DNA of 64,000 bases. Source: Eubacterium sp. Lineage in GTDB: Bacteria; Bacillota; Clostridia; Oscillospirales; Acutalibacteraceae. A program made the translations under genes and the position numbers. Shown piece after piece: positions 29,130-51,135 of this stretch (positions are counted from its first letter, which is position 1; the number at the start of each line of letters is the position of its first letter). Below the pieces are notes generated by a model that was not told the origin of the DNA, made no database searches, and saw only the letters and a list, made by a program, of their open reading frames with translations. The stretch lies in assembly GCA_022511225.1 (NCBI GenBank), contig JAFLRZ010000004.1, forward strand, positions 1 through 64,000, given 5' to 3'.

Positions 29130-29207
29130 ATTTTTCACCTCTCTTAATGGCACAATATCACAGTTTACCTGTTTAATCCAGTCAATATGATATTGTTTTC
29201 CACTTTT

Positions 29208-29243
29208 ATTTTACAATAGAAGCATTCCCTAAATCATTAGGGG
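29208..29243 (-). promoter_or_regulatory. Inverted repeat and TAAAAT box upstream of the recombinase
   Basis: CCCTAA-ATCA-TTAGGG at 29227-29242 is a perfect inverted repeat; on the minus strand it is followed 20-odd bases later by TGTAAAAT (29208-29215), a possible -10 for the recombinase. This could be an operator for the recombinase promoter. Confidence 0.4.
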
Positions 29244-29488: not shown

Positions 29489-29596
29489 AAGGCAACACAG
29501 ATTCTAAATGTTTTTGTCATTCCTCCAATCAAATTGTATTTGCGATAATAATTATCGACTTGTTTTTTAGTTTTTGTTTCATAGATTTCCTTTCTA

Positions 29597-29616
29597 CCTG
29601 CCGATTGCTCGGCAGG
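29597..29616 (-). terminator. Hairpin after the relaxase gene
   Basis: CCTGCCGA (29597-29604), loop TTGC, TCGGCAGG (29609-29616). On the plus strand it is followed by ACTTTTGTTTT. On the minus strand it lies 10 bases after the relaxase stop and is followed by a ribosome site AAGGAAAT and a 17-codon frame (MKQKLKNKS...). Confidence 0.55.
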
Positions 29617-29625
29617 ACTTTTGTT

Positions 29626-30983: not shown

Positions 30984-31392
30984 AGAATTCCTTTGCCAAA
31001 GTAGAATCATATTTTATTGCATCAAAATCAATTATGCCGTTAGTTGATGCAACTTTTTGAGCACAAAGCTTATCAAGCCTTTCTAACAAACTGCTGTCAA
31101 TGTCATATGCCAAGCATAAAATACAATTTTGTTTTGCTGATTCAACTGCTAATTTGAATATCATTTCTGATAAGCAATCCTGCAAAGAGTCAACCTGATT
31201 TTTGATTTCACTGCTTATTAGCGGAGTGATATAGTCAGCACTTCTCTTGTGCATCAGGTAGCCGATATAGAAATTCACGGCTGATCTAATGAATGAACTT
31301 TTGTTATCATCATATGAAAAAGGTAATGCTTTTTCGATTTCTTCAATCATTTCCGGTTGCATCCAGATTGAATACTTCTTCATATTTTCCAT
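30976..31392 (-). CDS. Ribbon-helix-helix mobilisation accessory protein
   Basis: A 138-residue protein. Residues 1-50 are a ribbon-helix-helix (MKKYSIWMQPEMIEEIEKALPF..DDNKSSFIRSAVNFYIGYL), followed by a helical domain. Proteins of this form accompany MobP relaxases, bind oriT and help form the relaxosome. AAGGAGGT lies five bases upstream of the ATG. It overlaps the relaxase start by eight bases, so the two are translated as a pair. Confidence 0.8.
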   Translation of the reverse strand: MENMKKYSIWMQPEMIEEIEKALPFSYDDNKSSFIRSAVNFYIGYLMHKRSADYITPLISSEIKNQVDSLQDCLSEMIFKLAVESAKQNCILCLAYDIDSSLLERLDKLCAQKVASTNGIIDFDAIKYDSTLAKEFYG

Positions 31393-34183: not shown

Positions 34184-34262
34184 AACCCCAAAAATCAAAA
34201 GGCGAATGTTTTATAATACAATATACTCATCAAAGGAATTTGAAACTTTTGATGAGTTTTTG
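34184..34262 (+). terminator. Repeated leader/terminator element, copy a
   Basis: AACCCC at 34184-34189, ATACAATATACTCATC at about 34216-34231, then a hairpin ACTCATCAAA (34225-34234)/TTTGATGAGT (34248-34257) and T run. The same order of parts recurs at 39302-39383 and 43792-43872. Confidence 0.65.
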
Positions 34263-34369
34263 TTTTGCAAAATTTTATGTTGATTTAAATGTTTGTTTTA
34301 TTATTGAACAGTAGCTTTTTGATGAATAATGCAAATCAAATGATTTTATTGTAACAGGAGGATTTAATT

Positions 34370-34576: not shown

Positions 34577-34870
34577 ATGAATGATGAAAAAATAATTAAA
34601 AGAATAAAGGAGCAATATCCTTATTACAGCAAAGAAAAGCAAAAGGAATATGCAAAACTGCTTATGAGCGTTGATGAAAGATTGTATCAAAATGTTGAGG
34701 AATGGGTTAATGATAATTCGCTTTCCGAAATATGGATTCGCGGCAAGTACTGTGTTCGAGCAGTAATGCAGATAAGGCAGGATGATGATTTTGTTGATGC
34801 AGTTTTAGCACTTAATGAATACGCGAAGAAAGCGTCAAATGAATATATGATTTGGCGACAGAGGGCATAA
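34577..34870 (+). CDS. Small helical protein, first gene of the JAMM-E1 cluster
   Basis: A 97-residue protein, unknown family. GGGAGGAAACAAGT precedes the ATG; an in-frame ATG at 34475 lacks a ribosome site. The sequence is helical and charged (MNDEKIIKRIKEQYPYYSKEKQKEYAKLLMSVDERLYQNVEEWVNDNSLSEIWI split into helices), ending NEYAKKASNEYMIWRQRA. It sits two bases upstream of the metallopeptidase gene and reads in the same direction as the whole cluster. Confidence 0.6.
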   Translation: MNDEKIIKRIKEQYPYYSKEKQKEYAKLLMSVDERLYQNVEEWVNDNSLSEIWIRGKYCVRAVMQIRQDDDFVDAVLALNEYAKKASNEYMIWRQRA

Positions 34871-34872
34871 CT

Positions 34873-35898
34873 ATGAGTGACTGTAAATCATTAGCCCCTG
34901 TTAAGACAAGATATTCAAATTTATCTGATAGTGCCTTGAGGTCAATGTTTACCGAATCATCGTGGATGAAACTCAGTAAGTATGAAAAACTGGACGTTTT
35001 ACAGGAAACTGTTAACAGAGAAGCACTGAACAATGGAGCAATGCCTTGCAAAGTATCTTTTGAAAATATGGCAAGTAATATGCAAGGCTGTCAGTTCGAT
35101 GATAAAATTATGCTTAACCGTGAAATGTTTGTTGATAATCAGATTACATATAAATACGGTGACACAAGTTTTAAATTTGATATGGAAGCGCCGAATTATT
35201 CAGCCTACGAGGTGGTTTTGCATGAATATCGTCACAGTTTGCAGCAACAAATCAGTGACGGAAAAATAAATGCCGATTCTGACACAAAGGCGAGGTTTGA
35301 ATCGAATAATTTCACAGTTTCTGAAATTGACGGGCAGAGGGCATCTCAATATATGCTTGGTAAAACGGGGAACGGTTATGATATGTATTATCTTAATCCT
35401 ACAGAGCTTGATGCTCATAAATTTTCACAGGAACAGGCAATGGCATTAGTTAATGAACACAGAGCGCAAAACGGTGATGATAATTCAATTTTGTCATATA
35501 CCGAAAAAATCAGTGCAACAGGCTACGAAGCAAAGCTTGCTGAGCTGAAAGAGAAATATGGCGAGAATATTGATAAAGACGTTGAGCAGGTTTTAATAAA
35601 TAAATTCAATAACACTAACGTGCCGGTTGATAAAAATGTTGAGAAAATGGTGGCGTCAGAAATGATTGCTTCACAGCAGGCTATCGACAATGCAAACAAA
35701 AATGAAATAAATAATATCAGCAGCACAAATGCAGTGTCCGAAAATTATTCAAGTACTGTAGATGAGTTTGATGCGGCACAGGCTAATGCAGTTGATATGG
35801 ATGCTACAGTATCAATCAGTACAGATACTTCTGCGGATTCAAGTGTCAGCGCAGATGCGGGTTCAGGTATTGATGGTGGATACTCATCAAGTGTGTAA
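34873..35898 (+). CDS. Putative HExxH zinc metallopeptidase with low-complexity tail
   Basis: A 341-residue protein from the ATG at 34873 (the frame opens earlier at a TTG). Residues about 105-125 contain YEVVLHEYRHSLQQQ, an HExxH zinc motif (HEYRH), and about 65 residues later NPTELDAHKFSQEQ supplies a Glu that fits a gluzincin third ligand. The last 60 residues are Ser/Ala/Asp-rich (TVSISTDTSADSSVSADAG...). Just before the tail is SSTVDEFDAAQANA, a motif shared with the next small protein. Substrate and export are unknown; a protease for element-specific substrates is the simplest reading. Confidence 0.65.
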   Translation: MSDCKSLAPVKTRYSNLSDSALRSMFTESSWMKLSKYEKLDVLQETVNREALNNGAMPCKVSFENMASNMQGCQFDDKIMLNREMFVDNQITYKYGDTSFKFDMEAPNYSAYEVVLHEYRHSLQQQISDGKINADSDTKARFESNNFTVSEIDGQRASQYMLGKTGNGYDMYYLNPTELDAHKFSQEQAMALVNEHRAQNGDDNSILSYTEKISATGYEAKLAELKEKYGENIDKDVEQVLINKFNNTNVPVDKNVEKMVASEMIASQQAIDNANKNEINNISSTNAVSENYSSTVDEFDAAQANAVDMDATVSISTDTSADSSVSADAGSGIDGGYSSSV

Positions 35899-35912
35899 CG
35901 GGAGGGTTAAAA

Positions 35913-36161
35913 ATGATTCCAAATTATGATGATTTACATTATGGTAAATTCCAATATCAAAGCCAAAGCACGATAGAAGAATTTGATGCCGCACAGAAGG
36001 CGGATAATGTAAATGAGTGTCAGAACGTCAGTGAAAGCTCAATTTCGGCGGAATCAGCCGTAAATGAGGGAACAGCTAATTCTTCCAGTGCAGGCACAAG
36101 CTCTTCAGCAGGTGTCGGAGCTGAGGGCGGTTGCTCGGCAGGTTGTTCAGCAGGGGCATAG
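35913..36161 (+). CDS. Small protein with EFDAAQ motif and Cys/Gly-rich tail
   Basis: An 82-residue protein, ATG after GGGAGGGTTAAAA. Residues about 18-30 read QSTIEEFDAAQKA, nearly the same as SSTVDEFDAAQANA in the peptidase upstream. The C-terminus is Ser/Gly/Ala-rich and ends GVGAEGGCSAGCSAGA with two Cys in a CSAG repeat. No known family. The shared motif may be a signal read by a common partner, such as the ATPase encoded next; the Cys-rich tail could also be modified, as in some ribosomal peptides. Both ideas are inference. Confidence 0.55.
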   Translation: MIPNYDDLHYGKFQYQSQSTIEEFDAAQKADNVNECQNVSESSISAESAVNEGTANSSSAGTSSSAGVGAEGGCSAGCSAGA

Positions 36162-36172
36162 GAGGAGATTTT

Positions 36173-37516
36173 ATGAATTATGACAGTTTAAATTTAAGAG
36201 TGCGAAAAGATCAGTTAGGGGTCGACAGAACGATTTTAGTAGGGCATAAAATGAGTGATTGCCTGCCGGTTCAATATACAAGTCCGCCGCTTCTTCAGAT
36301 GTCAGGCGATAAGGGAAACTTTAATATTTCGGCAGATCAGCTTTCAAAGGGGTGTATGCTCATCGGCAGCACGGGCAGTGGAAAGACTAATGCATTTTTT
36401 ATGATGCTCGATCAGCTTCTTCCTAAAATTAAAAGTAGTGATGTTGTGCTGATATTTGACAGTAAAGGTGATTTTATGAACCGTTATTACGAGCCTGATA
36501 ATCCTGATCATATTGTAATTTCTGCAAATGAAAATCACAGGTCAATTACAAAGGGCTGGAACATATACGGTGAGCTGTTTGATAAAAACGGTGAATTCGG
36601 TGAAAGTGCAGATATAATGGCAAAGGAGATATCAAAAGCACTTTTTAAAAATATTGAATCGTCAAATCAGCCGTTTTTCCATATAGCGCCTACAGATTTG
36701 TTTTCTGTTATTATGTCATGCTTTGTTAAAGAAGCTACAGAGCAGAAAAGCTATCATAAGCTTAATAATGAAACGCTTGTAAATTTCATTAACAGTTCAA
36801 CAGTTCAGGATTTTTACAATATGATACAAAAATATCCGCAGTTTAAATACGTTCAATCTTATTTAGGCGAAGCTAAATTGCAAACACCTCAATCGCTTGG
36901 CGTTTTAGGTCATCTGTATTCTATGATCAGCAGTCAGTTCATAGGCCCGTTTAAGCATAAAATGCCGTCAGGTCATTTTTCAATGCGCCGTCTGATAAGA
37001 GAAAGAGGTGCTAAAGTAATCTTTCTTGAATACGACATTAATCTCGGAGATACGTTATCGCCTATATACTCGCTGTTTTTTGATTTAGCGATTAAGGAAG
37101 CACTGACGTCGGATACAGGAAATACGTATTTAATTTGTGATGAAATGAATTTGCTGCCATATTGTCAAAGATTTCAGGATGCCGTGAATTACGGCAGGAG
37201 CAAGGGCGTGAAAACCGTTGTAGGCCTGCAAAGTATCAATCAGCTTTATAACAATTACGGTGAGGACGAGGGTAAAGCAATAGCGGCAGGCTTTGTTAAT
37301 GCAATTTGCTTTAATGCCGTTGATTACGATACCCGTAAATTTGTGTCGGAGCGATTTGGTACAACCTTTGAAAGTATTAATTGGAGTGGCTCAAATATAA
37401 CGAGGAACGGTTATACCGTAGAAGATTCGGACATACACAATCTTAAAACGGGAGAGGCATTTATTGACTTGGCAGGATTGACACCGTTCAAATTCAGATT
37501 CGATAAACTGGTATAA
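36173..37516 (+). CDS. VirD4/FtsK-like P-loop translocation ATPase
   Basis: A 447-residue protein from the ATG at 36173 (GGAGGAGATTTT upstream). Walker A is GSTGSGKTNAF (about residues 64-74), followed by VVLIFDSKGDFMNRYY, a TraD/VirD4-style stretch, and Walker B TYLICDEMNLLP with TVVGLQSINQL as sensor region. No transmembrane helices are seen, unlike classical VirD4, so membrane attachment would need the small helix proteins nearby. It probably pumps protein or DNA; the shared EFDAAQ motif upstream offers possible substrates. Confidence 0.75.
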   Translation: MNYDSLNLRVRKDQLGVDRTILVGHKMSDCLPVQYTSPPLLQMSGDKGNFNISADQLSKGCMLIGSTGSGKTNAFFMMLDQLLPKIKSSDVVLIFDSKGDFMNRYYEPDNPDHIVISANENHRSITKGWNIYGELFDKNGEFGESADIMAKEISKALFKNIESSNQPFFHIAPTDLFSVIMSCFVKEATEQKSYHKLNNETLVNFINSSTVQDFYNMIQKYPQFKYVQSYLGEAKLQTPQSLGVLGHLYSMISSQFIGPFKHKMPSGHFSMRRLIRERGAKVIFLEYDINLGDTLSPIYSLFFDLAIKEALTSDTGNTYLICDEMNLLPYCQRFQDAVNYGRSKGVKTVVGLQSINQLYNNYGEDEGKAIAAGFVNAICFNAVDYDTRKFVSERFGTTFESINWSGSNITRNGYTVEDSDIHNLKTGEAFIDLAGLTPFKFRFDKLV

Positions 37517-37537
37517 CTAAGCTAAGGAGGTGTCCTT

Positions 37538-38719
37538 TTGAATAAGCGTAGAATAAAAAACGAATGTGACAATCACAACAGGGCTTTAAGTGCCGTAAGG
37601 CACAGAGGCTTTTTTTCGGTAGAGAGATTTTTGAATTTCTCCGCCGGTAATCTGTTAATCAATGGCGGTAGCGTTCAGGATAGAATTTTCGTTATAAAAA
37701 AGGAAATAGTCCGCACTAAAAGCACAAGCCGTGAGCCTGTTATAGTTTTCAGTAATAACAGTTTTTTACAGGATGGGCTGATTGAATTGGTAAATATAGG
37801 AGATATCGGCAGGCTTTTTGTGTGCTCTCAGGATTATAAATTCTATGACTTTTTCCGTAATATGCAGCCTAATCTTATATCTGATTACTTTTCTATGCTT
37901 GCACAGGAAAAGGGTTACCGCGATACAAGTGAGCTTCACGATTATATAGGTGCATTTTTAAACACCCTAAAATCACAGGCTGATATAAATTTAAGCTCCA
38001 TAAAGGCATTCCTCCAGAATTCAGATGCAGATATTGCAAACGCTGCAAGATCAAACGGCAATGATGCAGATTGTGAAATTATTCTTGCTTCAGGCAGAGG
38101 CGGAGTCAATTTCAGAAGACTTGTTTCTATGGTTGGCAATGCTTTTGAAACGCTTACCGTTGACAACTGCTCAACAGGTTTTAATATTAACTCAATTACT
38201 GATAAGAACTGCGTTTTGTATATAAATACAAATACGTGCGGTTATGAATTCCTCGGTCTGTACTTTTTGCAGGAGCTCAAACAGTGCATAGGAAAAAGCT
38301 TTACGTTGGTATTTGATGATTGCTTGCTTCTAAATAATAATGAACTGATGAGCTTTTTAAACGTTCTCAAGCAAAGGGGCAACGTAAAGGTTTTGTTATC
38401 TACAGAAAATATAATGTCACTCCCTTCAGAAAAGAAATTGTCCGATTTTTCAGGAGAAATTGTCTTTCTTAACGGCACTGCTCCTGCACATGATATTCAG
38501 GCGGTGCTATCGGATATGGGAGAGTATTCACATTTTGAAGTGACAAGCTCATCAGGAACACCGCCAAAATTATTTTTTTCTTTTTTAAGAACTGAAAACA
38601 GAGGCATTACGCCTTATTCAAGAGCCAAGGTCCTGCTTGAAGAGGAGTATGGCAATGCTGCCGTTTTGAGAGGTCATAGAGGGGCAGAAATACTCGTTGT
38701 GAAAAAATTAGTGTTTTAG
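37538..38719 (+). CDS. Degenerate ATPase-like partner
   Basis: A 393-residue protein directly after the VirD4-like ATPase; TTG start at 37538 with AAGGAGG six bases upstream. The place of Walker A holds INGGSVQDRIFVIKKE (no GKT), but a Walker B-like TLVFDDCLLLNNNELMSFLNVLKQRGNVKVLLSTENI and TFN region resemble the ATPase before it. This is likely an inactive relative that completes a hexamer or serves as adaptor. Unknown outside the cluster; I would not assign a function. Confidence 0.5.
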   Translation: MNKRRIKNECDNHNRALSAVRHRGFFSVERFLNFSAGNLLINGGSVQDRIFVIKKEIVRTKSTSREPVIVFSNNSFLQDGLIELVNIGDIGRLFVCSQDYKFYDFFRNMQPNLISDYFSMLAQEKGYRDTSELHDYIGAFLNTLKSQADINLSSIKAFLQNSDADIANAARSNGNDADCEIILASGRGGVNFRRLVSMVGNAFETLTVDNCSTGFNINSITDKNCVLYINTNTCGYEFLGLYFLQELKQCIGKSFTLVFDDCLLLNNNELMSFLNVLKQRGNVKVLLSTENIMSLPSEKKLSDFSGEIVFLNGTAPAHDIQAVLSDMGEYSHFEVTSSSGTPPKLFFSFLRTENRGITPYSRAKVLLEEEYGNAAVLRGHRGAEILVVKKLVF

Positions 38720-38729
38720 GAGAAGCTTT

Positions 38730-39068
38730 ATGGATTTTGATAATTTGTCAGGCTCATTTGAAGCAGACGTCTCACAGGTTAATAACAATAGAAGAAGGAA
38801 CAGGCACAGGCTTATAAGCCAATCTAAAGATAAGCTAAAAGGCCTTAGCGCTGAAAACTGGGTTGATATTGTGTGCTGCACAATAATTGCGGTTGTGCTG
38901 ATAGTTGTTTTCTGTAATTGGGAATCGGTAATGAGCACCCTGTTCACGTCTTTTTTATTCCCAATCATTAAGGTCTTGTCAAAAATAATTGCAGTTGCAG
39001 CAGTTGTTTTATGTATAGGGGGAGTGATTGGTGCAAAAATCCGCCGCCGCAGAAGATGGCATTATTAG
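38730..39068 (+). CDS. Two-helix membrane protein
   Basis: A 112-residue protein with a charged, Asn/Arg-rich N-terminus (residues 1-45) and two hydrophobic helices (about 48-65 and 80-102), ending RRRRWHY. GGAGAAGCTTT precedes the ATG. The family is unknown. In the cluster it could anchor the ATPase at the membrane. Confidence 0.6.
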   Translation: MDFDNLSGSFEADVSQVNNNRRRNRHRLISQSKDKLKGLSAENWVDIVCCTIIAVVLIVVFCNWESVMSTLFTSFLFPIIKVLSKIIAVAAVVLCIGGVIGAKIRRRRRWHY

Positions 39069-39077
39069 GGGGTAATT

Positions 39078-39275
39078 ATGGTTCAGAGAATATTCAGATA
39101 CGTCGTTGCAGCCGGAATAATATTTTTAGTATTGTCGGTTATTTCAATTTATAAAAACTGGGATTCCTTGACCGATTATTTTTCTAATTCGTTGTATTAT
39201 GTCGGCGGCGTGGTGCTTTATTTGCTTATATATGCGATTGGATTTTTTCTCATTTTCCGTGCAATATTCAGATAA
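39078..39275 (+). CDS. Small two-helix membrane protein
   Basis: A 65-residue protein: helix about 5-22, loop YKNWDSLTDYFSNS, helix about 40-60. It shares the loop pattern NW(D/E)S with the preceding membrane protein (CNWESVMSTLFTS versus KNWDSLTDYFSNS), so the two are probably distant copies. GGGGGTAATT precedes the ATG. Confidence 0.58.
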   Translation: MVQRIFRYVVAAGIIFLVLSVISIYKNWDSLTDYFSNSLYYVGGVVLYLLIYAIGFFLIFRAIFR

Positions 39276-39301
39276 TACCTTGTTGCCGTGAAGTTGATTT
39301 T

Positions 39302-39383
39302 AACCCCCAAAAAATTATCATGTAAAATATTATTGTACAATATACTCATCGAAAGGAAAAACTTTTGATGAGTATATTTTTTT
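39302..39383 (+). terminator. Repeated leader/terminator element, copy b
   Basis: AACCCCC (39302-39308), TGTACAAT (39334-39341), hairpin ATACTCATC (39342-39350)/GATGAGTAT (39367-39375) with an inner AAAG/CTTT stem, then TATTTTTTT. A ribosome-site-like AAAGGAGG follows at about 39411 without an ATG. Confidence 0.7.
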
Positions 39384-39493
39384 ATATCCCAAACGGAAGT
39401 TAATGAAGAAAGGAGGATAAATATAAATAATCAAATTTACTCGTCACTTTCGGTAAATCAATATTAAAATTAAATTAAAAGGAGATTAAATTT

Positions 39494-39709
39494 ATGTTTA
39501 ACAATTTTGGAAATTATCAGTCATTCAATAATACAGTTACATTCTTTGGCGGCAGACAGGGTGACCTCGACGGCGGCACATGGCACGGCGGCAGACAGGG
39601 TGATCTCGACGGCGGTACATGGCACGGCGGCAGACAAGGTGATCTCGACGGCGGTACATGGCACGGCGGCAGACAAGGTGATCTCGATGGAGGAACTTGG
39701 CACGCTTAG
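39494..39709 (+). CDS. Tandem-repeat peptide, four 13-residue units
   Basis: A 71-residue peptide with AAAAGGAGATTAAATTT before the ATG. Residues 1-18 are MFNNFGNYQSFNNTVTFF; residues 19-70 are four copies of GGRQGDLDGGTWH with no amino acid difference; the last residue is Ala. The four DNA units differ only at synonymous third positions, which shows selection on the peptide. Its GGxxGDLD part recalls calcium-binding GG repeats but does not match the RTX consensus. The gene lies 85 bases upstream of membrane protein, JAMM-E1 and AAA+ genes. A precursor or modifier peptide processed or activated by that enzyme is the leading idea. Confidence 0.75.
   Translation: MFNNFGNYQSFNNTVTFFGGRQGDLDGGTWHGGRQGDLDGGTWHGGRQGDLDGGTWHGGRQGDLDGGTWHA
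39548..39703 (+). repeat. Four tandem 39-base units
   Basis: Units at 39548-39586, 39587-39625, 39626-39664 and 39665-39703, each coding for GGRQGDLDGGTWH. Differences are cag/caa, gac/gat, ggc/ggt/gga, aca/act only. GC content is well above that of the flanks. Confidence 0.95.
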
Positions 39710-39793
39710 TCTGTTTTGTTAAAAGCAATAAAAAGCCAAGAGGTGGTAGGAAAATATATTTAATGTTATAAACTGATTTTTAAGGAGTACGCT

Positions 39794-40180
39794 ATGATAT
39801 TTTTATTGATTATTCCAATTATCGTTATCGCAATTTCTGTTGCCGTAATGATTCCGAGATGGAGAGATCCGTCTGAATTTAATTATAATTATTACGCCGT
39901 TACCAATGCGGCCGCACTTGATCATCAATACAAATTCTTTGTAAAAAAGGTTGGTAACGGATACCGCTGCTATATCAGGCGTACTCCTTCATACAGAGGT
40001 CGAGACACCTCGAATTATTTACCGCACTATTGGGTAGAAAATAAGACGGATAAGCACTATATTTGCTGGACAGGAGAGATAAAGTATCCTGAACAGGCAA
40101 AAACACTTTGCAGAAACTGGGCGGATGCAACTCAAAAATTTATTGATACAGGCGTTCCGGCACCCGGATTTAAAAGGTAG
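39794..40180 (+). CDS. Membrane-anchored YICW-domain protein
   Basis: A 128-residue protein with one N-terminal helix (residues 2-20, IFLLIIPIIVIAISVAVMI), then a globular domain: GNGYRCYIRRTPSYRG, HYWVENKTDKHYICWTGEIKY, QAKTLCRNWADATQKFIDTG. The same order GxR.YI ... YICW ... W...T..(F/Y)I..G is found in the protein at 40435, so these are paralogues. The invariant YICW holds a Cys that could be catalytic or a partner site for the E1 enzyme. Domain family unknown to me. Confidence 0.6.
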   Translation: MIFLLIIPIIVIAISVAVMIPRWRDPSEFNYNYYAVTNAAALDHQYKFFVKKVGNGYRCYIRRTPSYRGRDTSNYLPHYWVENKTDKHYICWTGEIKYPEQAKTLCRNWADATQKFIDTGVPAPGFKR

Positions 40181-40189
40181 GTAATAAAT

Positions 40190-40432
40190 ATGGAAACTTT
40201 TAAAATAATTGTACTTGTTATTTGTTTAATAGCTTATACAGGCTTTGCAGTCTGGGCTGTGACTAAATTCAATAAGGTATCAACAGGTATCGCAGGCTCT
40301 TTGTGTTTGGCCGGCGGAAGCGTTGGTGTATATTTCGCCGCACCCTTTATAGCAGTAGCCTTAGTCTGGCTGTTAAAGGCTGCCTTGATAATAGGTCTGA
40401 TTATTTTGGTTTTGTCTATTCTTGGAGGATAA
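40190..40432 (+). CDS. Two-helix membrane protein
   Basis: An 80-residue hydrophobic protein with helices at about residues 4-24 and 37-75 (the second perhaps two). GTAGGTAATAAAT precedes the ATG. Unknown family; stands between the two YICW-domain genes. Confidence 0.55.
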   Translation: METFKIIVLVICLIAYTGFAVWAVTKFNKVSTGIAGSLCLAGGSVGVYFAAPFIAVALVWLLKAALIIGLIILVLSILGG

Positions 40433-40434
40433 AT

Positions 40435-40842
40435 ATGAGATGTGAATACAATTTTTACCTGACATCAGACAGGCTTCTTGACATCGAGTTCTTGTTTGTT
40501 GATATGGGAGAGAATATCGGCTGGAGGGCATATATTATTTCAGATATCAACTATAGGCAATTCGGCGAAAGATCAATCATCTATACAGTCACACACAGGC
40601 TTGAAGACAGTGATGCCGACAGAGTAAGCAAAATCAATCGCTTTCTTAAATCAATAGACAGCTCTAAGCCTGATAAAAGCATCTACGGTTATATCTGTTG
40701 GTCAAAGCCGATATACGATCTTGATGATATGCACGAGGTGGCTAAGACGTGGTCGGAAATTACGGCGTACTATATCAGACACGGCGGAAGCTTTGGCAGT
40801 ATTCAACCAATCCTTAAGTCAAGGGGAATAATAAACTTATGA
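40435..40842 (+). CDS. Soluble YICW-domain protein
   Basis: A 135-residue protein starting at 40435 (GGAGGATAA upstream). It lacks the N-terminal helix of its paralogue at 39794 and shares GWRAYIISDINYRQFG, YGYICWSKPIYD, and KTWSEITAYYIRHGG with it. The stop overlaps the first possible start of the JAMM-E1 gene (ATGA at 40839), which argues for co-translation with it. A carrier or E2-like role is possible by context, but no E2 fold motif (HPN) is seen. Confidence 0.6.
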   Translation: MRCEYNFYLTSDRLLDIEFLFVDMGENIGWRAYIISDINYRQFGERSIIYTVTHRLEDSDADRVSKINRFLKSIDSSKPDKSIYGYICWSKPIYDLDDMHEVAKTWSEITAYYIRHGGSFGSIQPILKSRGIINL

Positions 40843-40862
40843 AGATAAAGGAGATTTTTAAT

Positions 40863-42308
40863 ATGAAAAAGAACGGTAATTCAGATTCAAAGTGGATTAT
40901 TACTGCGCAGGTCTATGAAGAAATAAGGCAGACCATAGGCTGCAGGAAGCCTGAGCAGGGCGGTATCCTTGGCTCAAGCGACGGTGTACATATTGATTAC
41001 TATTATTTTGACAAGACTGCAGATCGTTCATCAGCATCATATACGATGGATCACAAGACGCTTAATAAGGTGATTCATAAGTGGAATGATAACGGCATTC
41101 AGCTTGTAGGTATTATTCATTCCCATCCCTACGGCTTTAACAGTCCGTCAATCGGCGATAGAGAAACCGCAAGTCATATCATCAAGAGCTTAGACGTTAA
41201 GGGCAGGTTTTTCACTCCGATAGTTCAGGTTTCACCTAAGCTTAACGGTGATATTACAATTTATCCTTATTCCTTTGAGGAAACCATTGAGATGAAGAAG
41301 CAGCCTATGATTGTTGAGCAGGCTGACGTAAGCGAGCTCAAAAGGAAGAAGCAGCTCGAGCTGGACAGGCTGGCGCCAAACAGATTCAAGCGCATTGAGT
41401 CAGTATTCCCCGATAACCTTATGAGCAAAAAGACTGTTATTTGTATTGGTTGCGGCGGTTCAAGAACGTTTCTTGAAACACTTGCAAGATGCGGAGTCGG
41501 CAATTTTGTCCTGTTTGATGCCGACGTTATAGAGGATACAAATATAGCAACGCAGGGTGCATATATCTCCGAAATAGGCAAGCTCAAAACTGAGGTTATT
41601 AAGGAGCGCATACTCGATATCAATCCGCTTGCTGAGGTCAAGTGTATCAACCGTTTCCTTGACAATGAGATAACTGATGATGAATTCGATTTTATTACCA
41701 ACCTTAACGCTCTCAGGAAGGGAGACGTACTGCTTTGCGGCTGTACTGATGATTTTTATGCACAGGACAGATGTGCACAGTTGTCCGTTAAATTCAGCAT
41801 TCCGTATCTTGCTGCACAGATTTTTAAAGAGGGCAAGGGCCACGAGGTTATATTTTACTATCCCGGTGTTACTGCCTCCTGTCCAAGATGTATGCTTGCA
41901 TCAAGATACAAGAAAATGTTCGAAACAAACGAAAAAGCAGTCGGCTCATCGGCAGGTGCAGCAGTTTGTGTGACAGATTATCTCAATGCAATTAAATCAT
42001 ATACAGCGTTGTATATTCTCTGCTACAGAGAGCCGCAGACACCGCTTTATCACTTGCTTGACAGAATGGCAGACAGGAATTACCTGATGACAAAATGCTC
42101 TTTTGATTTTACCGCTCCGGCATTTGTTCCTCTTGAAGAACTTGCTGAAAAGGAAAGTGATTTGTCATTTCCCTTTGTAACTATTGCAATAGGACAGACG
42201 CCTGAAGCCGATTGCCCTTTATGTAAAGGTTACGGCATTATAACGAAGGATAAGGTCAATATTGCAGATACAAGAAATATTCCCGACAATCAGGGCAAAA
42301 AGCAGTAA
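40863..42308 (+). CDS. JAMM metallopeptidase fused to an E1/ThiF-like adenylating domain
   Basis: A 481-residue protein. The ATG at 40863 follows AAAGGAG; an in-frame ATG at 40839 overlaps the previous stop. Residues about 10-125 are a JAMM domain: EQGGILGS (upstream Glu), then HSHPYGFNSPSIGD, a perfect HxHx7Sx2D zinc motif. Residues about 180-450 are an E1/ThiF fold: GCGGSRTFLETLARCGVGNFVLFDADVIEDTNIATQ, with Gly loop and Asp pair, but with IATQ where E1 enzymes usually have an Arg (NLNRQ). Two CPxC pairs (CPRC and CPLC) form the structural zinc. The fusion combines removal and activation of a ubiquitin-like or peptide tag in one chain. Confidence 0.88.
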   Translation: MKKNGNSDSKWIITAQVYEEIRQTIGCRKPEQGGILGSSDGVHIDYYYFDKTADRSSASYTMDHKTLNKVIHKWNDNGIQLVGIIHSHPYGFNSPSIGDRETASHIIKSLDVKGRFFTPIVQVSPKLNGDITIYPYSFEETIEMKKQPMIVEQADVSELKRKKQLELDRLAPNRFKRIESVFPDNLMSKKTVICIGCGGSRTFLETLARCGVGNFVLFDADVIEDTNIATQGAYISEIGKLKTEVIKERILDINPLAEVKCINRFLDNEITDDEFDFITNLNALRKGDVLLCGCTDDFYAQDRCAQLSVKFSIPYLAAQIFKEGKGHEVIFYYPGVTASCPRCMLASRYKKMFETNEKAVGSSAGAAVCVTDYLNAIKSYTALYILCYREPQTPLYHLLDRMADRNYLMTKCSFDFTAPAFVPLEELAEKESDLSFPFVTIAIGQTPEADCPLCKGYGIITKDKVNIADTRNIPDNQGKKQ

Positions 42309-42333
42309 ATTCTATTAAAGAAAGGATGTTAAT

Positions 42334-43785
42334 ATGTTAAATTGGTTAAGTATGGTTAGTTGTAGTGACAGGGAGTTTGAGGGACTCCATAATGAGCTGA
42401 TGAATTGCTCGGGAAGCTACATATTTGACGATGTTAAGATGCCTCAGACCTGCCACAATAAGGTGTGTACAATACAGTTTAATTATTACTCACCAAGCCG
42501 TATATCTCTTATCTGTGCTCAGGCACCGATTAATTACGTCGGTTCAGATGAGCACATAGAGAGATGGCTGACTAACGGAAGTGAGGAATTCAATAGCTTT
42601 GATTCGTTAAAGGAATTTCTTAAGAGCTTCAGAAATGACAGAGTAAGTACACCGCCTATTGACAATTATCCTGAGTGTTTGGACGAGCCTGTTGTCAATA
42701 TACCCGAAAGGCCTCAGGTAAGATACGACTTTGATGCCATTACCGTGCCCGATTCAAACAAAAGGTATCTTGAGATTGATAAAGACAAGCTGGTGCTTGA
42801 TCTCAGCAATGAGATTTTCGGTCAGGACGAGAGCATAAAGAAGATATCACATTTAGTATGTAATCATCTTGGCACAAAAAACAGGACAAGGCCGCTTTCA
42901 ATATTCCTTTACGGCCCCACAGGTGTCGGCAAAACTCAGACGATAAAGAAGCTTACCGCTATGATAAACAAGCAAATCCCTGCAGATAAAAGCTTTGCTC
43001 TTAAGATTGTAGACTGTTCACAATTTCAGGAAAACCACGATATATCAAAGCTTATCGGCGCGCCTCCGGGTTACATTGGCTATGACGAGCCGGGTGCATT
43101 TGCGATATTAGAGGATAATCCTCACGTAATATTTGTGTTTGATGAAATAGAAAAGGCGGCCAATAACGTCACAGAAACGATTATGCAGGCATTGGATACC
43201 GGTGTGCAGGACACTAACGGCAAAACGCTTAGTGACGGCAGAACCTACTATGATCTTTCCCAGAGCATCATATTCTTTACAAGCAATATTGTGTTGGAAG
43301 AAAAGAAGAAGCCGCTTGGCTTTGGTAACGTCGATACGGCTCCTCCTGTGAGCAGTGTTATCGGCTCAGATGATTACAGTATTGCAAGACTGATTCAGGA
43401 GGAAACAAGAAAGGCAAAGCCTCTTCTTGTTGAAACAGGCAGGTTCAGGAAAGAGGTTATCGGCCGTATGAAGGCCATATTTAAATTCAACACAATCAGC
43501 GATGAGGCCGTAAAGCGTATTGCTCCTAAGTGTATCAGTGACCTTGCGGCAGAGAATCACTCGCTTTACGTAACCGATATTGAAACACCTATTCTTCAGG
43601 AGTTTATTAATGCGACGGCAAAAGACGTAAAGGAGTTTGGCGTCCGCGTTTTCAGAAATGAAGCAGAAAACTTTTTTGCCGATGCATTTATTCAATTTGC
43701 CAAGATTCATAATGACTATGAGTTTGTAACCGTTTCGGGAACACTTGATAACGTCATAATCAAGGAAACTCAGGACTGCACTTGA
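42334..43785 (+). CDS. ClpC/ClpB-type AAA+ unfoldase with LGF loop
   Basis: A 483-residue protein. Residues 1-150 are an unassigned N-terminal domain. The AAA+ core has Walker A GPTGVGKT (194-201), pore loop GAPPGYIGYDEPG, Walker B VIFVFDEIEK, sensor IIFFTSN, and a C-terminal D2-small domain. After the sensor comes KKKPLGF (Leu328-Gly329-Phe330), at the position where ClpC and ClpX carry the ClpP-docking (V/I/L)GF loop and ClpB has none. It should unfold proteins for a ClpP-type chamber, for example the ClpP-like protein at 60013 or the host ClpP. AGAAAGGATGTTAAT precedes the ATG. Confidence 0.85.
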   Translation: MLNWLSMVSCSDREFEGLHNELMNCSGSYIFDDVKMPQTCHNKVCTIQFNYYSPSRISLICAQAPINYVGSDEHIERWLTNGSEEFNSFDSLKEFLKSFRNDRVSTPPIDNYPECLDEPVVNIPERPQVRYDFDAITVPDSNKRYLEIDKDKLVLDLSNEIFGQDESIKKISHLVCNHLGTKNRTRPLSIFLYGPTGVGKTQTIKKLTAMINKQIPADKSFALKIVDCSQFQENHDISKLIGAPPGYIGYDEPGAFAILEDNPHVIFVFDEIEKAANNVTETIMQALDTGVQDTNGKTLSDGRTYYDLSQSIIFFTSNIVLEEKKKPLGFGNVDTAPPVSSVIGSDDYSIARLIQEETRKAKPLLVETGRFRKEVIGRMKAIFKFNTISDEAVKRIAPKCISDLAAENHSLYVTDIETPILQEFINATAKDVKEFGVRVFRNEAENFFADAFIQFAKIHNDYEFVTVSGTLDNVIIKETQDCT

Positions 43786-43791: not shown

Positions 43792-43872
43792 ACCCCTCAA
43801 GATGACGAACTGAAATATTACGTGTAAAATATACTCACCGAAAGATTTTCATTCGGTGAGTATACTTTTTTT
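43792..43872 (+). terminator. Repeated leader/terminator element, copy c
   Basis: ACCCCT (43792-43797), TGTAAAAT (43823-43830), hairpin ATACTCACCGAA (43831-43842)/TTCGGTGAGTAT (43852-43863), T run. It starts six bases after the AAA+ stop. Confidence 0.75.
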
Positions 43873-43887
43873 ATGGAGGATAGATTT

Positions 43888-44116: not shown

Positions 44117-45772
44117 ATGGGGAATAATGATATAACTCTTAACATGAAAAAACTGACCAAAGATTTAACAAATCAGGGTAATATATTTTTGGGAGCAAGG
44201 TATACGAAGACTGCATTATTAGAGCAGGTAACAAAGGTTGAACGGGCAATTGGAATTCAGGGTGCTTATGAGCCTGAATTAAAAACGTTAAGAAGAATGA
44301 TAAAAGAGGCCTTTATAAGTGCCGAATTGAGAGAGTCAATCAATAGTATTGACTATCTAAAGCTTGATGGACTGAAGACCTTAATTAATGATTCCAATTT
44401 ACCTGTAAAGTTTGATGCAGCTACATTAGTAAAGACGTTGAATGATAAGTATACCCAATACCCAAGGCGAGAGGCATATACCAAAAGGATTGTTGAAAGT
44501 TGTGCAGATGACGAATTTAAGGATGAAAACGGAGAATTAACATGCTCCGTATTTTCTGCTATTGTTAAGCAGTTTATAAAATACGATATAAAAGATGAAA
44601 AGAAAAAAACCGATGCGACAAAAAAATTAGTATGTAAAAAATTTCACATAGAAGAAAAAAATGCAGCGAAAAGAACCCGACTTGTTTTGCAGCATACTGA
44701 TGATTTTCTGATTGACGATTATAAAGAAATCAAGGAATTGTATGGGAATGATGATGATAAAAGAGAACAGTATTATCCTCTGTACGTAGCATACAATATG
44801 TCTACAGGCGGTGTAAGTCGCTCTAACCAAAAGCAGATAACAAAAGAGGAATTATATTATTTCGCCTTTGCTTTTAATATGACGTATTATACTAAAGACG
44901 AAATGAATTCAGAAAAATACGACGTTGACCGTGATATAAGAAAGCAGCTTTTTGAGGATTATTACACTGCAAGTGTTTTTGATTTCGAAGCTGACGAAAA
45001 GCAGGGTCAGGAAAATCTCGGTGATGGCATTGACCTTAAAAATTTTGCCGAGGTTATATATCTGTATTACCTGAGAAAGGGCAGAGATGAAAAAGCCGCA
45101 AAGGATGACAGGGTAAAAAAGGCATATTCTATGATTAAAGCCTGCCGTACATATTTCGAAAATATGGATTACTCACAGATAAGTGAAAAGTCCGATGATT
45201 ATTATGACGATACCAATAATTATTCCGACATTCCGTTTTATCTTAATGAAGCTGAATTTGAGAAATACATAAAAGGCAGGTACGCTGACAAAAGGTTTAC
45301 AGACTCTAATATCAGTATCTGGGAAAAGCCTGAGCAGATTACGGCTACGCAGGAGTATGTTAAGTTAATAAGCAAATTACAAGGCAAGGATGTTAATGAG
45401 TTTTTAGATTGCACTGTTTTTGACGGTCAGTCAGATCCTTTTACAAAAATAGTTGGTGTGGTTTATGATTACATAAAAGAGGCATTAGATGATGTGGTGG
45501 AAAACAGAATCGACATTGCCGGCGATTACGTCAGCAGAGAAAAGCTTATATCTTTATATTGTCTTGCTTATTTGAGAAAGTATAAAGACGACAGAAGAGA
45601 AAAAGACGATAGAAGAAAAATAAAATTTGAAAGGTTATTTAAAGATTTTTGCGGTGACAAAATTCGCGGATTAAATAAGCTTTTAGAAGAATGCAGGTAT
45701 CAGGAATTCACGGAGAAGAATTTATTTGACGTGATTATACTCTGTATAATCTATATAAATGTAACAAAATAA
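44117..45772 (+). CDS. Hypothetical 551-residue protein
   Basis: A large soluble protein that I do not recognise. It is charged and helix-rich, with an Asn/Asp/Lys bias and no transmembrane segment. The N-terminal 190 residues are a helical domain (YTKTALLEQVTKVERAIGIQ...), the middle has a tandem of QITKEELYYFAFAFNMTYYTKDEMNSEKYDVDRDIRKQLFEDYYTAS and AEVIYLYYLRKGRDEKAAKDDR, and the C-terminus repeats the YCLAYLRKYKDDRREKDDR pattern. The repeated LYYLRKGRDE/CLAYLRKYKDD segments suggest internal duplication. AAAGGGTGAAACAAT precedes the ATG. It heads the phosphatase-kinase group, so a scaffold or substrate role is likely by context only. Confidence 0.55.
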   Translation: MGNNDITLNMKKLTKDLTNQGNIFLGARYTKTALLEQVTKVERAIGIQGAYEPELKTLRRMIKEAFISAELRESINSIDYLKLDGLKTLINDSNLPVKFDAATLVKTLNDKYTQYPRREAYTKRIVESCADDEFKDENGELTCSVFSAIVKQFIKYDIKDEKKKTDATKKLVCKKFHIEEKNAAKRTRLVLQHTDDFLIDDYKEIKELYGNDDDKREQYYPLYVAYNMSTGGVSRSNQKQITKEELYYFAFAFNMTYYTKDEMNSEKYDVDRDIRKQLFEDYYTASVFDFEADEKQGQENLGDGIDLKNFAEVIYLYYLRKGRDEKAAKDDRVKKAYSMIKACRTYFENMDYSQISEKSDDYYDDTNNYSDIPFYLNEAEFEKYIKGRYADKRFTDSNISIWEKPEQITATQEYVKLISKLQGKDVNEFLDCTVFDGQSDPFTKIVGVVYDYIKEALDDVVENRIDIAGDYVSREKLISLYCLAYLRKYKDDRREKDDRRKIKFERLFKDFCGDKIRGLNKLLEECRYQEFTEKNLFDVIILCIIYINVTK

Positions 45773-45809
45773 CCCCCGATTTAATATGTTTTCATAATTC
45801 CTGTAAAAT
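45771..45809 (+). promoter_or_regulatory. Repeated leader motif, copy d, without terminator
   Basis: AACCCCC at 45771-45777 and TGTAAAAT at 45802-45809, the same spacing as in copies b and c (about 25 bases), just after the stop of the 551-residue gene and before the PP2C gene. No hairpin terminator follows, which suggests that the motif itself is the functional part. Confidence 0.5.
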
Positions 45810-45846
45810 TACAATTGTGAAAAAATTAATTTTAAAGGAGAGATTT

Positions 45847-46533
45847 ATGAAAATTATTAAGTACACAAAGGTGGGGGAATTTCACAAAAGAAACAGTAAA
45901 AAAAATGAGGACGTAATTAAATACAGGGAGAATGACAGGTTTGTAATCATAACCTTATCTGATGGTGTAACCAGCTGTGGAAAAAGCAGGGAAGGTGCCG
46001 CAATTAACTGTGCTGAAGCAATAAAGTTTCTGATGAAAAATGCGCAGGGACTTTATCCGTTATCAGATGAAAAAAAGGCATATCTGATTTTAGAGCAATT
46101 GATTTACAAATTGCAATTGGCTGCAATTAAAGAAAATGCACCATTGTCAGATTATGCGGCAACACTTTCTTTTTGCTGCTTTGACAAAAAGTATAACAAA
46201 TTATTGTTGTTCAATTCAGGTGACGGAGCAATATTTGAGCATAATTGCGACTCAAAAAAAACACAGCTTGTTTTAAAACCGCAAAGATATGATGAGGTAT
46301 ATACTCCTCTCGTAACAACTGAGAATGCCTACAAGGCTGCAGAAATAAAAATTTTAGATGCTAAAAAAAATCATATTATTTTTATCTGCTCAGACGGCGT
46401 TTTAAAAGAGTTCAATGAAAAGCTTGATGAAAACGTCAGCATTGATTTGAGTGAGGACTGTTATGAGCTTAAAAACAAGCTGAAAAATGCAAATAATTTT
46501 GACGATTGCAGTTTTATAGCGTTAAAAATTTAA
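45847..46533 (+). CDS. PP2C-family Ser/Thr phosphatase
   Basis: A 228-residue protein. I chose the ATG at 45847 since AAAGGAGAG lies upstream; a GTG at 45817 would add ten residues. Motifs: ITLSDGVTSCGKSREGA (first DG), LLLFNSGDGAIFEHN (GDG), IFICSDGVLKEFNEKL (SDG) and DDCSFIAL at the end (last Asp pair). It is likely manganese-dependent and removes phosphate from the kinase encoded next or its targets. Linked phosphatase-kinase pairs in bacterial defence and stress systems usually act as one module. Confidence 0.88.
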   Translation: MKIIKYTKVGEFHKRNSKKNEDVIKYRENDRFVIITLSDGVTSCGKSREGAAINCAEAIKFLMKNAQGLYPLSDEKKAYLILEQLIYKLQLAAIKENAPLSDYAATLSFCCFDKKYNKLLLFNSGDGAIFEHNCDSKKTQLVLKPQRYDEVYTPLVTTENAYKAAEIKILDAKKNHIIFICSDGVLKEFNEKLDENVSIDLSEDCYELKNKLKNANNFDDCSFIALKI

Positions 46534-46551
46534 TTTTGGAGATTATTTTAT

Positions 46552-49500
46552 ATGGCTGATTTAAAAAGAGAAAAATTAAGCAAAGGTAAAAAAATCACAC
46601 TTAAGGAATTAAATACTAAATATCCTTTTAATTTTGAAATAATTTCATCTTTAACCTCTAAGGAAACAAAAGAGGGCGGTTCTGCAATATGTTATCTTGC
46701 AGAGTGTAACGGTGAGAGGGGAAGGCTTAAAGAGTTTTATCCTTGTGACAATAAATATGAAGGCATTTATTATAATTTAAAGAGGAATAAAAACAATCAG
46801 TTAATCCCCGAGGGTGATGCTCAGGAAATCAAATTTTATTCTGCCTGCGCTGATTTTATTAAAGCCTACGATAAGATAAAGGAAGCAAAAAGCAAGGACA
46901 AAAAGCATAATATTTTAAATAACTATATGCCAAGCGGAGTGTTATACAGAGGCTTTGATGGCGCAAAGGAAGGCTCCGTTTACGTGTGGACCAAGGATGA
47001 TAAAGAGGGTGTAACCTTTGATGAATATATAAGAAGTATTCACCGCTCACCGAGAAAATTATCTGCGCACAAACTGTACAACGTAATTGAAGTGGTAAAA
47101 TCCTTAACGGAATTTTTAATGGCTCTTCACAGTGCCTGCCTTTTGCACCTTGATTTGAAACCGTCAAATTTTCTCATTAATTATAATGCGCAATATGAGA
47201 TTAATCCTAACAGCATTTCCGTTTTTGATATTAATTCAATTTACGACCTCGACGGCAGACCGTTATTTGCAGGGACTGACGGCTTCAGGGCACCGGAGCT
47301 TTATGACATTTCAAGAAATGGTGAAATTTATCTTGGCACGGATATTTATTCAGTAGGCGCAATTTTATATAACGCCTTATTTTCAACAAAAAAAGAAAAC
47401 GTTACGTATAAGAATAACGGCGAACTCAATGATATAGAAAACCGCATTGCCGAATGTGAATTAATAAAGTATTCACAGTGCAATTCAGATGAAAAAATCA
47501 GATACAGGCTTGCAGAAATATTAAAAAAATGTCTGGCAGAGGACATCGAAGACCGTTACAGCTATTGCGCAGAGCTGAGAGAGGCATTGGTGAGTGTTCA
47601 GAACCGTATATTATCCCATGCAAAAAATGAAACACTTCCTATAAATGAAAAATTAAAATACATTGACAGTGACGTAAGAAGCGAAGTTAATCCTACGGCT
47701 GTTATTCAGAATTTATTGTATAACTATCCTATATACACAAAAGAATTGAACAATGTTTCCAAACGGGAAGACGGATTAAAAACAATTAACGTTTTAACAG
47801 TAGGTGCAGGAGAGTATGCAAGACAGTTTATTGATCAATGTCTTCAGTGCGGACAGATGGTAGACACTTATCTGAAAATTACTGCAATATCGAATGAGTG
47901 TGCAGAGGATAAGGCGGTATATTTATCAAACAGAAAGGCTCTTAAGGATTTTGTAAATATAGACAATGAATATGAAAACCCTATTGAGCAGAAAATGTAT
48001 GCTGATTTGAGCTTTAAGCCTTTTGATATAAATGATGAAACTATAAAGCTTTCACCTGAAATTAAGACTAATTCAAAATCTCTTGATTCGGCAATAGACA
48101 GCCTTTGCTTATATAATGAAACGGTAGATTATATTTTTGTTGCACTCGGTGACGATAAATGGAATGTAAGGGTTGCGCAAAAGCTTTATGATTATTATAA
48201 AGATAACGGCACGTTCATCAGCTATACTACCTCGGATAAAAACAAAAAGCCTCAGAAAAATTTAGTTCCCGTTTTTATTGATGAAAAAATCAATCTGGAG
48301 GATATTGCGCCGTCCCTTGAGCAAATGGCGTTCAACGTTCATTTATCTTGGAACAATAATCTGAACGTAAGCATCGCTGATGAAAGGAAGAGATTTAAGG
48401 ACAAGTACAACTATAATTCTTCATTGGCAGCAGCCCTTTCAATAAAATACAAATTGCACAGCATTGGCATTGAATCAGATGATCTGAATTTTGCCGTTAA
48501 GCAATTTAATAAATTTAAAAAGAATTATTTTAACAAGCTGATTGCCTTAGAGCACCGAAGATGGGTGCTTGAAAAGGTTTGTGACGGCTGGACGTGTCTG
48601 GATAATTTAGAGGAATGTCTTGAGCATCCCCATAATGATAAAAAGAGGAAAAAGCACGTTTGCATATTAAAGGGCAATGAAAATTTAGAACTGTCTGAAG
48701 GTGTTTTAAAAAATCATAAGAATTGGGATACGGCTGAGGAAAAAGAATTATCCCCTCTCGACCCGCTTGACAGAATGTCGGTAGAGCTTCATCAGAAGTA
48801 TAAGGAAAAGGCTGACGAAGTAATTCAGGGCAACGTACTCTCAGGCGAATACGCTTCTAAAATTAAAAGCCTGATTTCATCTTCAAAGCAATCAAAGGTT
48901 GCATTTTTAGAGCTGATTTCCTGTATGAAACTGATTAATAACGGCGTTGACAGTAAAACGAAGAACTATCGGGCTTTAATGATTGCTTTTGAAAATACTC
49001 TTAATAATTTTTCAGCTTCAATTGCCGATGAGGTTAAATCTAATCTGAAAATGCTGGACAAACTGTTCCAACCGATTTTAAAAAGCAAGGAATACGTTGA
49101 TTATAAGAAAAAGGATGCAGATATAATAAATCATATACCTTTTATACTGACTTATACTAATAACAAGCATATTGTCGTTCCGTTTTCCTTTGGAAGCTCA
49201 AATAATGATTTTATGAACGTTTCCTCAGCAATTCTTATTAATCCTTCGGATATTACCTATCTTGCCTGTGCGAATACAATTGATGATTTGAAGCAGATAA
49301 ACGTTTCAATTTCAAATACATACAGGCTTTTGGATAAAATGAATATTCACGCTAATATCAGATTCTATTTAGCTTATCAATCAAGCTTATCTAAATTTAA
49401 CAAGGTATTCGGTAAAATTGAATCTGAATTAAATGCCGGAAATGTTAAGCGCTTTCGTACGCTTGAATTTAATATGCCGGAGGATATTACTCAGCTGTTG

Positions 49501-51107: not shown

Positions 51108-51135
51108 AATGTAAATCTATGGAGAGATAATGGTT

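Follow-up and report, generated by a model that had tools for sequence, protein, structure and literature searches.

A short repeat peptide linked to a JAMM-E1 fusion and a ClpC-like AAA+ protein on a clostridial island: a possible tagging module

Within a 64,000-nucleotide window from an Eubacterium sp. genome (contig JAFLRZ010000004.1; genome of 2.2 Mb, 98.65% complete), positions 34577-43785 hold about 12 genes that an earlier note, made from the sequence alone, had taken for one cluster. All the parts it named are present and lie on the + strand, but the stretch is two terminator-bounded operons, A (34577-39275) and B (39494-43785). Operon B encodes, in order, a short repeat peptide, YICW1, a hydrophobic protein, the related YICW2, a JAMM-E1 fusion and a ClpC-like AAA+ protein. 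It recurs, whole or in part, at 13 further loci (14 with the window), and we propose, with a probability of about 0.4 and from gene content and motifs, that it may be a ubiquitination-like module around the short peptide.

Operon B and its recurrence

The features of operon B, with the hairpins on either side, are as follows; z compares the folding of the native sequence with that of shuffled sequence.

39336-39392, +: terminator-like hairpin separating operons A and B (z -7.84)
39494-39709, +: repeat peptide, 71 residues with four units GGRQGDLDGGTWH; first gene of the operon, with a ribosome-binding-site-like AAGGAGA
39794-40180, +: YICW1, a hydrophobic N-terminus (by eye) and a YICW domain related to YICW2
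40190-40432, +: 80-residue hydrophobic protein, mem80 (hydrophobicity by eye), with 61-65% relatives in loci L024, L027, L028 and L161
40435-40842, +: YICW2, an alpha+beta domain with invariant His54 and Cys88 in the alignment (AlphaFold2 pLDDT, the predicted local confidence score, 91.8)
40839-42308, +: JAMM domain (about residues 20-145) fused to E1/ThiF (about 180-465); Pfam ThiF 2.2e-20, Prok-JAB 5.8e-7
42334-43785, +: single-module ClpC-D2-like AAA+ protein of 483 residues with its own N-terminal region and an LGF loop; Pfam AAA_2 1.9e-23
43822-43878, +: terminator-like hairpin 3' of the operon (z -5.66)

Pattern scanning of 84,980 genomes yielded 11 of the further loci (L024-L034); L035 came from IMG/VR, searched with an alignment, and L161 was reached through a search with the VirD4b ATPase of L024. 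An IMG/VR scan with one protein found no locus, and tblastn against plasmids and phages matched JAMM-E1 only in part, through ThiF, and YICW2 not at all. A further 80 loci from an AAA+ scan of IMG/VR (27-36% identity) were taken as generic. Given near-identical pairs (L027/L028, 99.6% identical in DNA; L030/L035, L031/L032 and L028/L161, 87-94%), the 14 loci amount to about 10 lineages. The hosts are some gut bacteria, mostly Clostridia, in which the module sits on mobile islands. L027 is labelled Bacteroidales though it is 99.6% identical to L028, and is perhaps misassigned; the other labels among L024-L034 are Clostridia, Ruminococcaceae, Oscillospiraceae, Anaeromassilibacillus, Massiliimalia and Acutalibacter. 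L034, on the same contig as L003 (the match position agrees), is a truncated, broken remnant, and the JAMM-E1 frame of L035 is interrupted near its start.

Judged from genome samples, operon B is rare. Direct searches found it in none of 59 other relatives (E <= 1e-20), in one of 393 other sampled members of the order (E <= 1e-15), that one being the remnant, and in none of 397 other sampled members of the phylum (E <= 1e-25). A 398-genome family sample holds at least three carriers (the source genome, G516 and G680), noticed only via the VirD4b search.

Where the operon does occur its order is well kept. YICW2 lies directly upstream of JAMM-E1 in 13/14 loci, the broken remnant being the exception, and in the window its stop codon overlaps the JAMM-E1 start codon. 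The AAA+ gene follows JAMM-E1 directly in all 11 loci whose contig extends that far, a count that leaves out L029 and L033, which end earlier, and the broken L034. Two YICW2 copies occur in L024, L025, L027, L028 and L161; in L025 it is the second that adjoins JAMM-E1. YICW1 and the 80-residue protein are found in five of the 14 loci (window, L024, L027, L028 and L161), each of which has tandem peptides; in L025 the units are also in tandem, but neither gene is present. Upstream, 13 loci have a short peptide gene and L035 shows the last residues of one, although the likeness of the peptide is brief in four (L031, L032, L034 and L035). The co-occurrence check proposed in the earlier note thus came out in favour of its claim that the peptide belongs with JAMM-E1 and the AAA+ protein: every locus with upstream DNA has the peptide gene, some of them weakly.

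In the window the peptide consists of 4 x 13 residues, and the four units are identical in protein. All six variable DNA columns among them (6/6) are third codon positions. When one unit from each of six loci was compared pairwise, there were 74 synonymous and 14 nonsynonymous codon differences, the pairs not being independent, against a random expectation of 22% synonymous. Because the window's variable columns are all third positions, and because of this synonymous excess, the peptide is under strong synonymous constraint, with selection acting on the protein. Unit number varies: four in the window, four plus an imperfect first in L024, three (the first imperfect) in L025, six in L027, and five in both L028 and L161, the last altered in L161. 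L026, L029 and L033 have single copies with an exact GGTWH-stop end; L026 has another such end upstream, as well as a small protein with a motif fragment and a hydrophobic C-terminus.

In a divergent clade, short genes with strong ribosome-binding-site-like sequences lie upstream of YICW2 (found by eye, then checked). That of L030 encodes MRKLSFLPVGIFNGGREGQELPSGVFC, those of L031 and L032, one base apart, ...SKGGSSESQDTDFTRSLPPGTFRNS, and that of the remnant L034 ...SLPIGAFCWSWSG, while L035 begins inside ...LPIGVFC. The precursors are thus about 22-39 residues long with single cores, or longer with tandem cores, and the two clades have different motifs, with enzymes that remain recognisable. 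The pattern GGR.G.{1,3}L..G[TVS][WF] matches nothing but module peptides when 164 records are translated in six frames (3.6 million residues); it is a specificity check rather than a blind test because it was written after L030 had been seen, and the peptides of L027, L028, L161, L031, L032 and L034 do not match it. A DNA pattern for the peptide gave 0 matches in IMG/VR, and in the source genome the peptide occurs only at the present locus, besides one match at E 0.06.

Among the enzymes, JAMM residues E39, H94-S95-H96-P97, S104 and D107 are invariant in 9/9 aligned sequences, so that the zinc and catalytic set (Glu, HxHP, Ser, Asp) is, by alignment, intact. A Foldseek search with the JAMM-E1 model returned BubCD in all of the top eight rows (best E 9.6e-18, over both domains). 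The intact motif and this closest solved structure bear out the earlier view that the fusion is of a type employed in ubiquitin-like conjugation. By sequence, the E1 domain is closest among solved structures to MccB (8.4e-14), and PaaA also matches (1.4e-10); most nucleotide-site motifs are kept and Lys250 is invariant. No Pfam ubiquitin-like match (E <= 1) was found among the window's module proteins, the L161 peptide or the 288-, 249- and 360-residue neighbours, in a scan that covered part of the open reading frames (ORFs) of the loci. The AAA+ module is ClpC/ClpA-D2-like, with ClpC as best match (4.1e-46). G329 and F330 of its LGF loop, which the earlier note had singled out, are invariant in 8/8 and align with the ClpP-type loop of ClpC; with L161 added the loop reads [LIM]GF in 9/9, one being MGF. 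Its N-terminal region (about 150 residues) has no Clp_N match in Pfam at E <= 1.

In the YICW proteins His54 and Cys88 are invariant in 14/14 rows (11 YICW2, 3 YICW1). Nothing clear was found for the 14 members in Pfam, PHROGs or a PDB profile search, and a Prok-E2_B search in 20 genomes gave no match anywhere, controls included, and so carries no weight.

Two observations stand beside these. At L025 (9311-11446) JAMM-E1 carries an N-terminal extension of roughly 230 residues, low in complexity and rich in Ser/Tyr/Gly/Ala. L004 (MT836827.1, 584-6308), an unannotated contig labelled as a faecal phage, has a ThiF-like gene followed by one for a 1423-residue FtsK/SpoIIIE ATPase (2.5e-24), and looks like another E1-linked cluster.

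Operon A and the surrounding island

Upstream of operon B lie a further hairpin and the genes of operon A.

34213-34280, +: terminator-like hairpin with a U-rich tail (z -3.65), upstream of operon A
34577-34870, +: 97-residue protein with a 23% relative (78 residues, E 2e-4) in L020, beside a HExxH relative and a VirD4-like gene
34873-35898, +: HExxH (HEYRH, by eye) peptidase-like protein with EFDAAQ and a Ser/Ala-rich tail; likely ATG at 34873
35913-36161, +: 82-residue EFDAAQ protein with a Ser/Gly/Ala/Cys-rich tail
36173-37516, +: VirD4/TrwB-like ATPase (VirD4a); Pfam TrwB_AAD_bind 5.9e-32, PADLOC mad8 4.3e-10
37538-38719, +: partner protein, possibly degenerate VirD4-like
38730-39068, +: 112-residue hydrophobic protein (by eye)
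39078-39275, +: 65-residue hydrophobic protein (by eye)

The three hairpins all have U-rich tails and share their arm sequence, as if each cassette carried a copied terminator.

The earlier note's inventory largely holds. The HExxH, EFDAAQ, 4 x 13 peptide, paired YICW, JAMM-E1 and AAA+ genes were confirmed by sequence or Pfam, and by eye its four small membrane proteins correspond to those of 112, 65 and 80 residues and the YICW1 N-terminus. The VirD4-like ATPase is clear; its degenerate partner is weakly supported (hhalign to VirD4-like, E 0.0014 at a probability of 17%; 27% over 80 residues to the gene adjoining VirD4a in L015). The HExxH protein has no Pfam family match and, by blastp, a 26% relative over 242 residues in L020, where relatives of both it and the 97-residue protein lie near a VirD4-like gene. 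EFDAAQ is a direct repeat, present in its tail and in the 82-residue protein. The latter, suggested earlier as a substrate, gave no tblastn match at E <= 1e-3 in any of 23 other loci, and its motif is not near a Gly-Gly end; a role as modifier is not supported.

The claim that operon A is an obligatory part fares no better, since VirD4a mostly travels without the module. A search with VirD4a, its query starting four codons upstream of the likely ATG, matched 9/398 family genomes including the source (E <= 1e-30), that is 8/397 others, and the 13.6-19.5 kb examined around it in each of those eight contained no JAMM-E1. One of the eight, G516, shares match coordinates with the genome of L028, which therefore seems to hold VirD4a and the module on different contigs. 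Conversely, VirD4a is present at E <= 1e-10 in only 1/9 module genomes; L028 and L161 have more distant versions (27%) close to the module. tblastn detected no relative around L024, L025 and L030-L034, in a matrix whose blanks are not proof of absence because it missed the L020 relatives of the HExxH and 97-residue proteins that blastp found. Because VirD4a stretches lack JAMM-E1 and most module genomes give no VirD4a match at that threshold, operons A and B are, on this comparison of gene content, separate cassettes that sometimes meet; with the terminators dividing the stretch as well, we reject the reading of the whole 9 kb as a single unit. At L015 (3379-10963) the VirD4a-type ATPase and its partner lie beside a PP2C gene (2.9e-30) and a kinase gene (2.5e-13) in a signalling-ATPase cluster that also holds two vWA-like proteins (by eye; the one scanned had no Pfam match at 1e-3). 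Elsewhere among the eight stretches the neighbours include zinc-ribbon-like proteins (by eye).

On the left side of the island (27456-31392) a serine recombinase and a MobL relaxase suggest a mobilisable element. To the right, 44117-58071 is a defence-like island, followed by a ClpP-ATPase pair.

45844: PP2C
46552: kinase with a Card1-like nuclease domain
50829: RyR-domain protein, with a 72% relative upstream of the peptide in L024
52860: TIR-nSTAND protein
56662: SpoVG-domain protein
60013-60615, +: second ClpP, 16 kb downstream; CLP_protease 5.8e-51, Ser, His and Asp motifs kept
60608-61987, +: VirD4b ATPase, overlapping the clpP gene; T4SS-DNA_transf 8.5e-35
62000-63448: Phage_30_3 (GP30.3-like) domain protein directly after VirD4b; Phage_30_3 6.2e-29

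A second ClpP lies on the module contig in four loci (window, L024, L028 and L161), within a few kb in three of them: 86 bp after the AAA+ gene in L024, and upstream of operon B in L028 and L161. Among 10 module genomes, three have an island-type ClpP and six only matches of <=44%, as expected of the housekeeping enzyme; in the genome of L029 this comparison found no ClpP. The island ClpP is paired with a VirD4/TraG-like ATPase in all six loci examined (window 60013-61987; L024 13033-14915; L028 5768-7620; L161 10019-11871; L162 9156-11024; L163 4047-6191). The VirD4b search matched 37 genomes, of which the best three new ones were examined; in L162 and L163 the pair occurs without the peptide module in the stretch examined. 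The Ser/His/Asp motif patterns are not matched in the L163 ClpP, and the L162 pair is a few kb from a PP2C gene. It is possible that VirD4b-type ATPases are partners of ClpP outside the AAA+ class.

What operon B may do

In the model that we propose, the JAMM-E1 fusion takes the small gene product as its substrate and JAMM cuts it, which we regard as likely; the cut would most likely fall after the common Gly-Gly, which also lies between repeat units, or else behind the Trp-His that ends a unit. The freed carboxylate would then, at slightly better than even odds, be activated as an adenylate by E1. More tentatively, the invariant Cys and His of YICW might accept or position the peptide as an E2 would, with YICW1 doing so at the membrane; we infer this E2-like role from the gene position and the two residues. 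Equally tentative is the attachment of the peptide to proteins, from which JAMM might also remove it. A little less doubtful is a last step in which the AAA+ protein would unfold tagged proteins and feed them to ClpP, the host's or, where present, the island's own. This scheme of peptide processing and tagging, though inferred throughout, would be the simplest one to give every conserved part a use, and operon B is probably a conflict or stress system, given islands with mobile and defence-like genes.

Several facts weigh against this proposal. The Arg of the NxxRQ motif is Thr or Asn in 9/9 E1 domains, and the single-copy peptides do not end in Gly-Gly; nothing else speaks as strongly against classic ubiquitin chemistry, although a JAMM cut after an internal Gly-Gly would give the N-terminal part, or the units of an array, an end of that kind. 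Structure prediction of YICW, another check proposed in the earlier note, gave a confident fold for YICW2 and no convincing or clear match to a known one (Foldseek against PDB and viral models; VIA). The chemistry is thus unproven, because E1 lacks the ATP-site Arg and YICW a clear fold match.

The main rival is a peptide natural product of the ribosomally synthesised and post-translationally modified (RiPP) class, resembling microcin C or pantocin: E1 would adenylate the precursor C-terminus, JAMM would trim or separate units, the product would be a small antibiotic, toxin or signal, and YICW and the AAA+ protein would serve recognition, maturation or self-protection. The MccB and PaaA matches of the E1 domain fit it, as do the lengths of the single- and tandem-core precursors, which are RiPP-like, and ThiF-like enzymes work on such peptides in several pathways in the sections of PMC12250964 available to us. 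By structure, however, both domains together match BubCD best, and the N-terminal domain is JAMM rather than the GrcB/EnfB-type peptide-recognition domain described there, where a ClpP-loop AAA+ protein is not among the RiPP systems presented. Pfam found no transporter or tailoring enzyme within the module. The peptide and E1 would be explained equally well, but the AAA+ protein and JAMM would be put to less use, and we consider a RiPP pathway somewhat unlikely.

The differing motif of the two clades, with enzymes that stay recognisable, and the defence-like genes of the window's island (TIR-nSTAND, kinase-nuclease, PP2C) would also suit a peptide that is a bait, sensor or regulatory element, such as a decoy cleaved or bound by a phage protein, while the target of JAMM-E1, YICW and AAA+ would be a ubiquitin-like or sulphur-carrier protein from some other host locus. 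The linkage of the peptide to the enzymes in all loci with upstream DNA and its strong synonymous constraint make this improbable, as does the lack of a ubiquitin-like gene among the neighbours scanned, a subset of the ORFs. Least probable, in our view, is that operon B serves a machine for secretion or DNA/protein transfer, which the earlier note had put on an equal footing. VirD4/TraG-like neighbours are frequent, and a transfer-linked role is kept open for that reason: VirD4a-type genes lie near the module in the window, L028 and L161, VirD4b with ClpP in the window, L024, L028 and L161, and in L030 genes for a TraG-like ATPase and Replic_Relax follow downstream, similar ORFs being present in L031, L032 and L035. 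These ATPases are not of one family and do not sit in one place, as would be expected for mobile elements generally; L025 has no VirD4-like match in its 21 kb; and VirD4a is mostly found apart from the module, as described above. The window itself has VirD4-like and MobL genes, and no VirB4-type gene was noticed among the part of its ORFs scanned.

If tagging by the peptide is nevertheless what operon B does, a bare peptide would suffice for the logic of E1 and protease; to our knowledge ubiquitin-like tagging uses a folded modifier. Bacterial ubiquitin-like chemistry would also be joined to ClpP degradation in one operon. It is tempting to speculate about a complete, ubiquitin-free tag-and-destroy system on a mobile island, with a dozen-residue peptide made singly or in tandem, one E1-protease fusion to mature and activate it, transfer by YICW as a new Cys/His family, and a dedicated single-module ClpC-like unfoldase with ClpP, although we think it unlikely that all of this holds. 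With a short, well-defined peptide, the substrate, cleavage site and activated end would be directly accessible with synthetic peptides.

Comparison with known systems

In the published literature searched we found no description of the operon B gene set or peptide, in agreement with the earlier note. For the ten window proteins scanned, PADLOC 2023 gave matches at domain level only. VirD4a and the downstream kinase weakly match mad8 and mad6 (about 4e-10 each) of the defence system MADS, but no further MADS protein is among the ten. The E1-E2 (4.2e-15) and JAB (2.6e-5) matches recall the antiphage system CBASS, type II; unlike there, E1 has no fused E2, and the ten proteins include no nucleotidyltransferase. 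With ClpC, ClpA and ClpE the AAA+ protein shares a D2-type module with a ClpP loop, and it differs in having one such module and an N-terminal region without a Clp_N match.

As in the MccB and PaaA systems for microcin C and pantocin, an E1 domain stands beside a short ribosomal peptide. Here, however, JAMM replaces the peptide-recognition domain, the motif Arg is missing, and YICW and AAA+ are partners. The ATP-site residues of EnfB are given as Arg167 and Lys180 in the available part of PMC12250964; we equate these with the NxxRQ Arg position and Lys250, so that, on this equation, the Lys would be kept and the Arg replaced by Thr or Asn.

Close in architecture are the Bub operons (BubA, BubB and BubCD), which in our view resemble the type 6e polyUbl operons described by Iyer et al. 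in 2006. Type 6e combines a JAB-E1 fusion, a polyUbl and an inactive E2/RWD-like protein (PMC1779556, in the part available), while PMC13373217 mentions 544 Bub operons and states that protection by Bub against phage has not been demonstrated. Operon B likewise has JAMM at the N-terminus of E1 in one protein, BubCD as best structure match, and a repeated modifier candidate with a small alpha+beta partner adjacent. Its repeats are 13-15 residues long, not 70-75, which is too short for a beta-grasp unit, and Pfam recognised no ubiquitin-like (beta-grasp) gene among the proteins scanned. YICW has its invariant Cys, and no UBC fold is recognisable in it; operon B also adds an AAA+ protein and sometimes ClpP. 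We do not file operon B as Bub, because it has no recognised ubiquitin-like protein; it shares the same enzyme architecture, and it may work like Bub.

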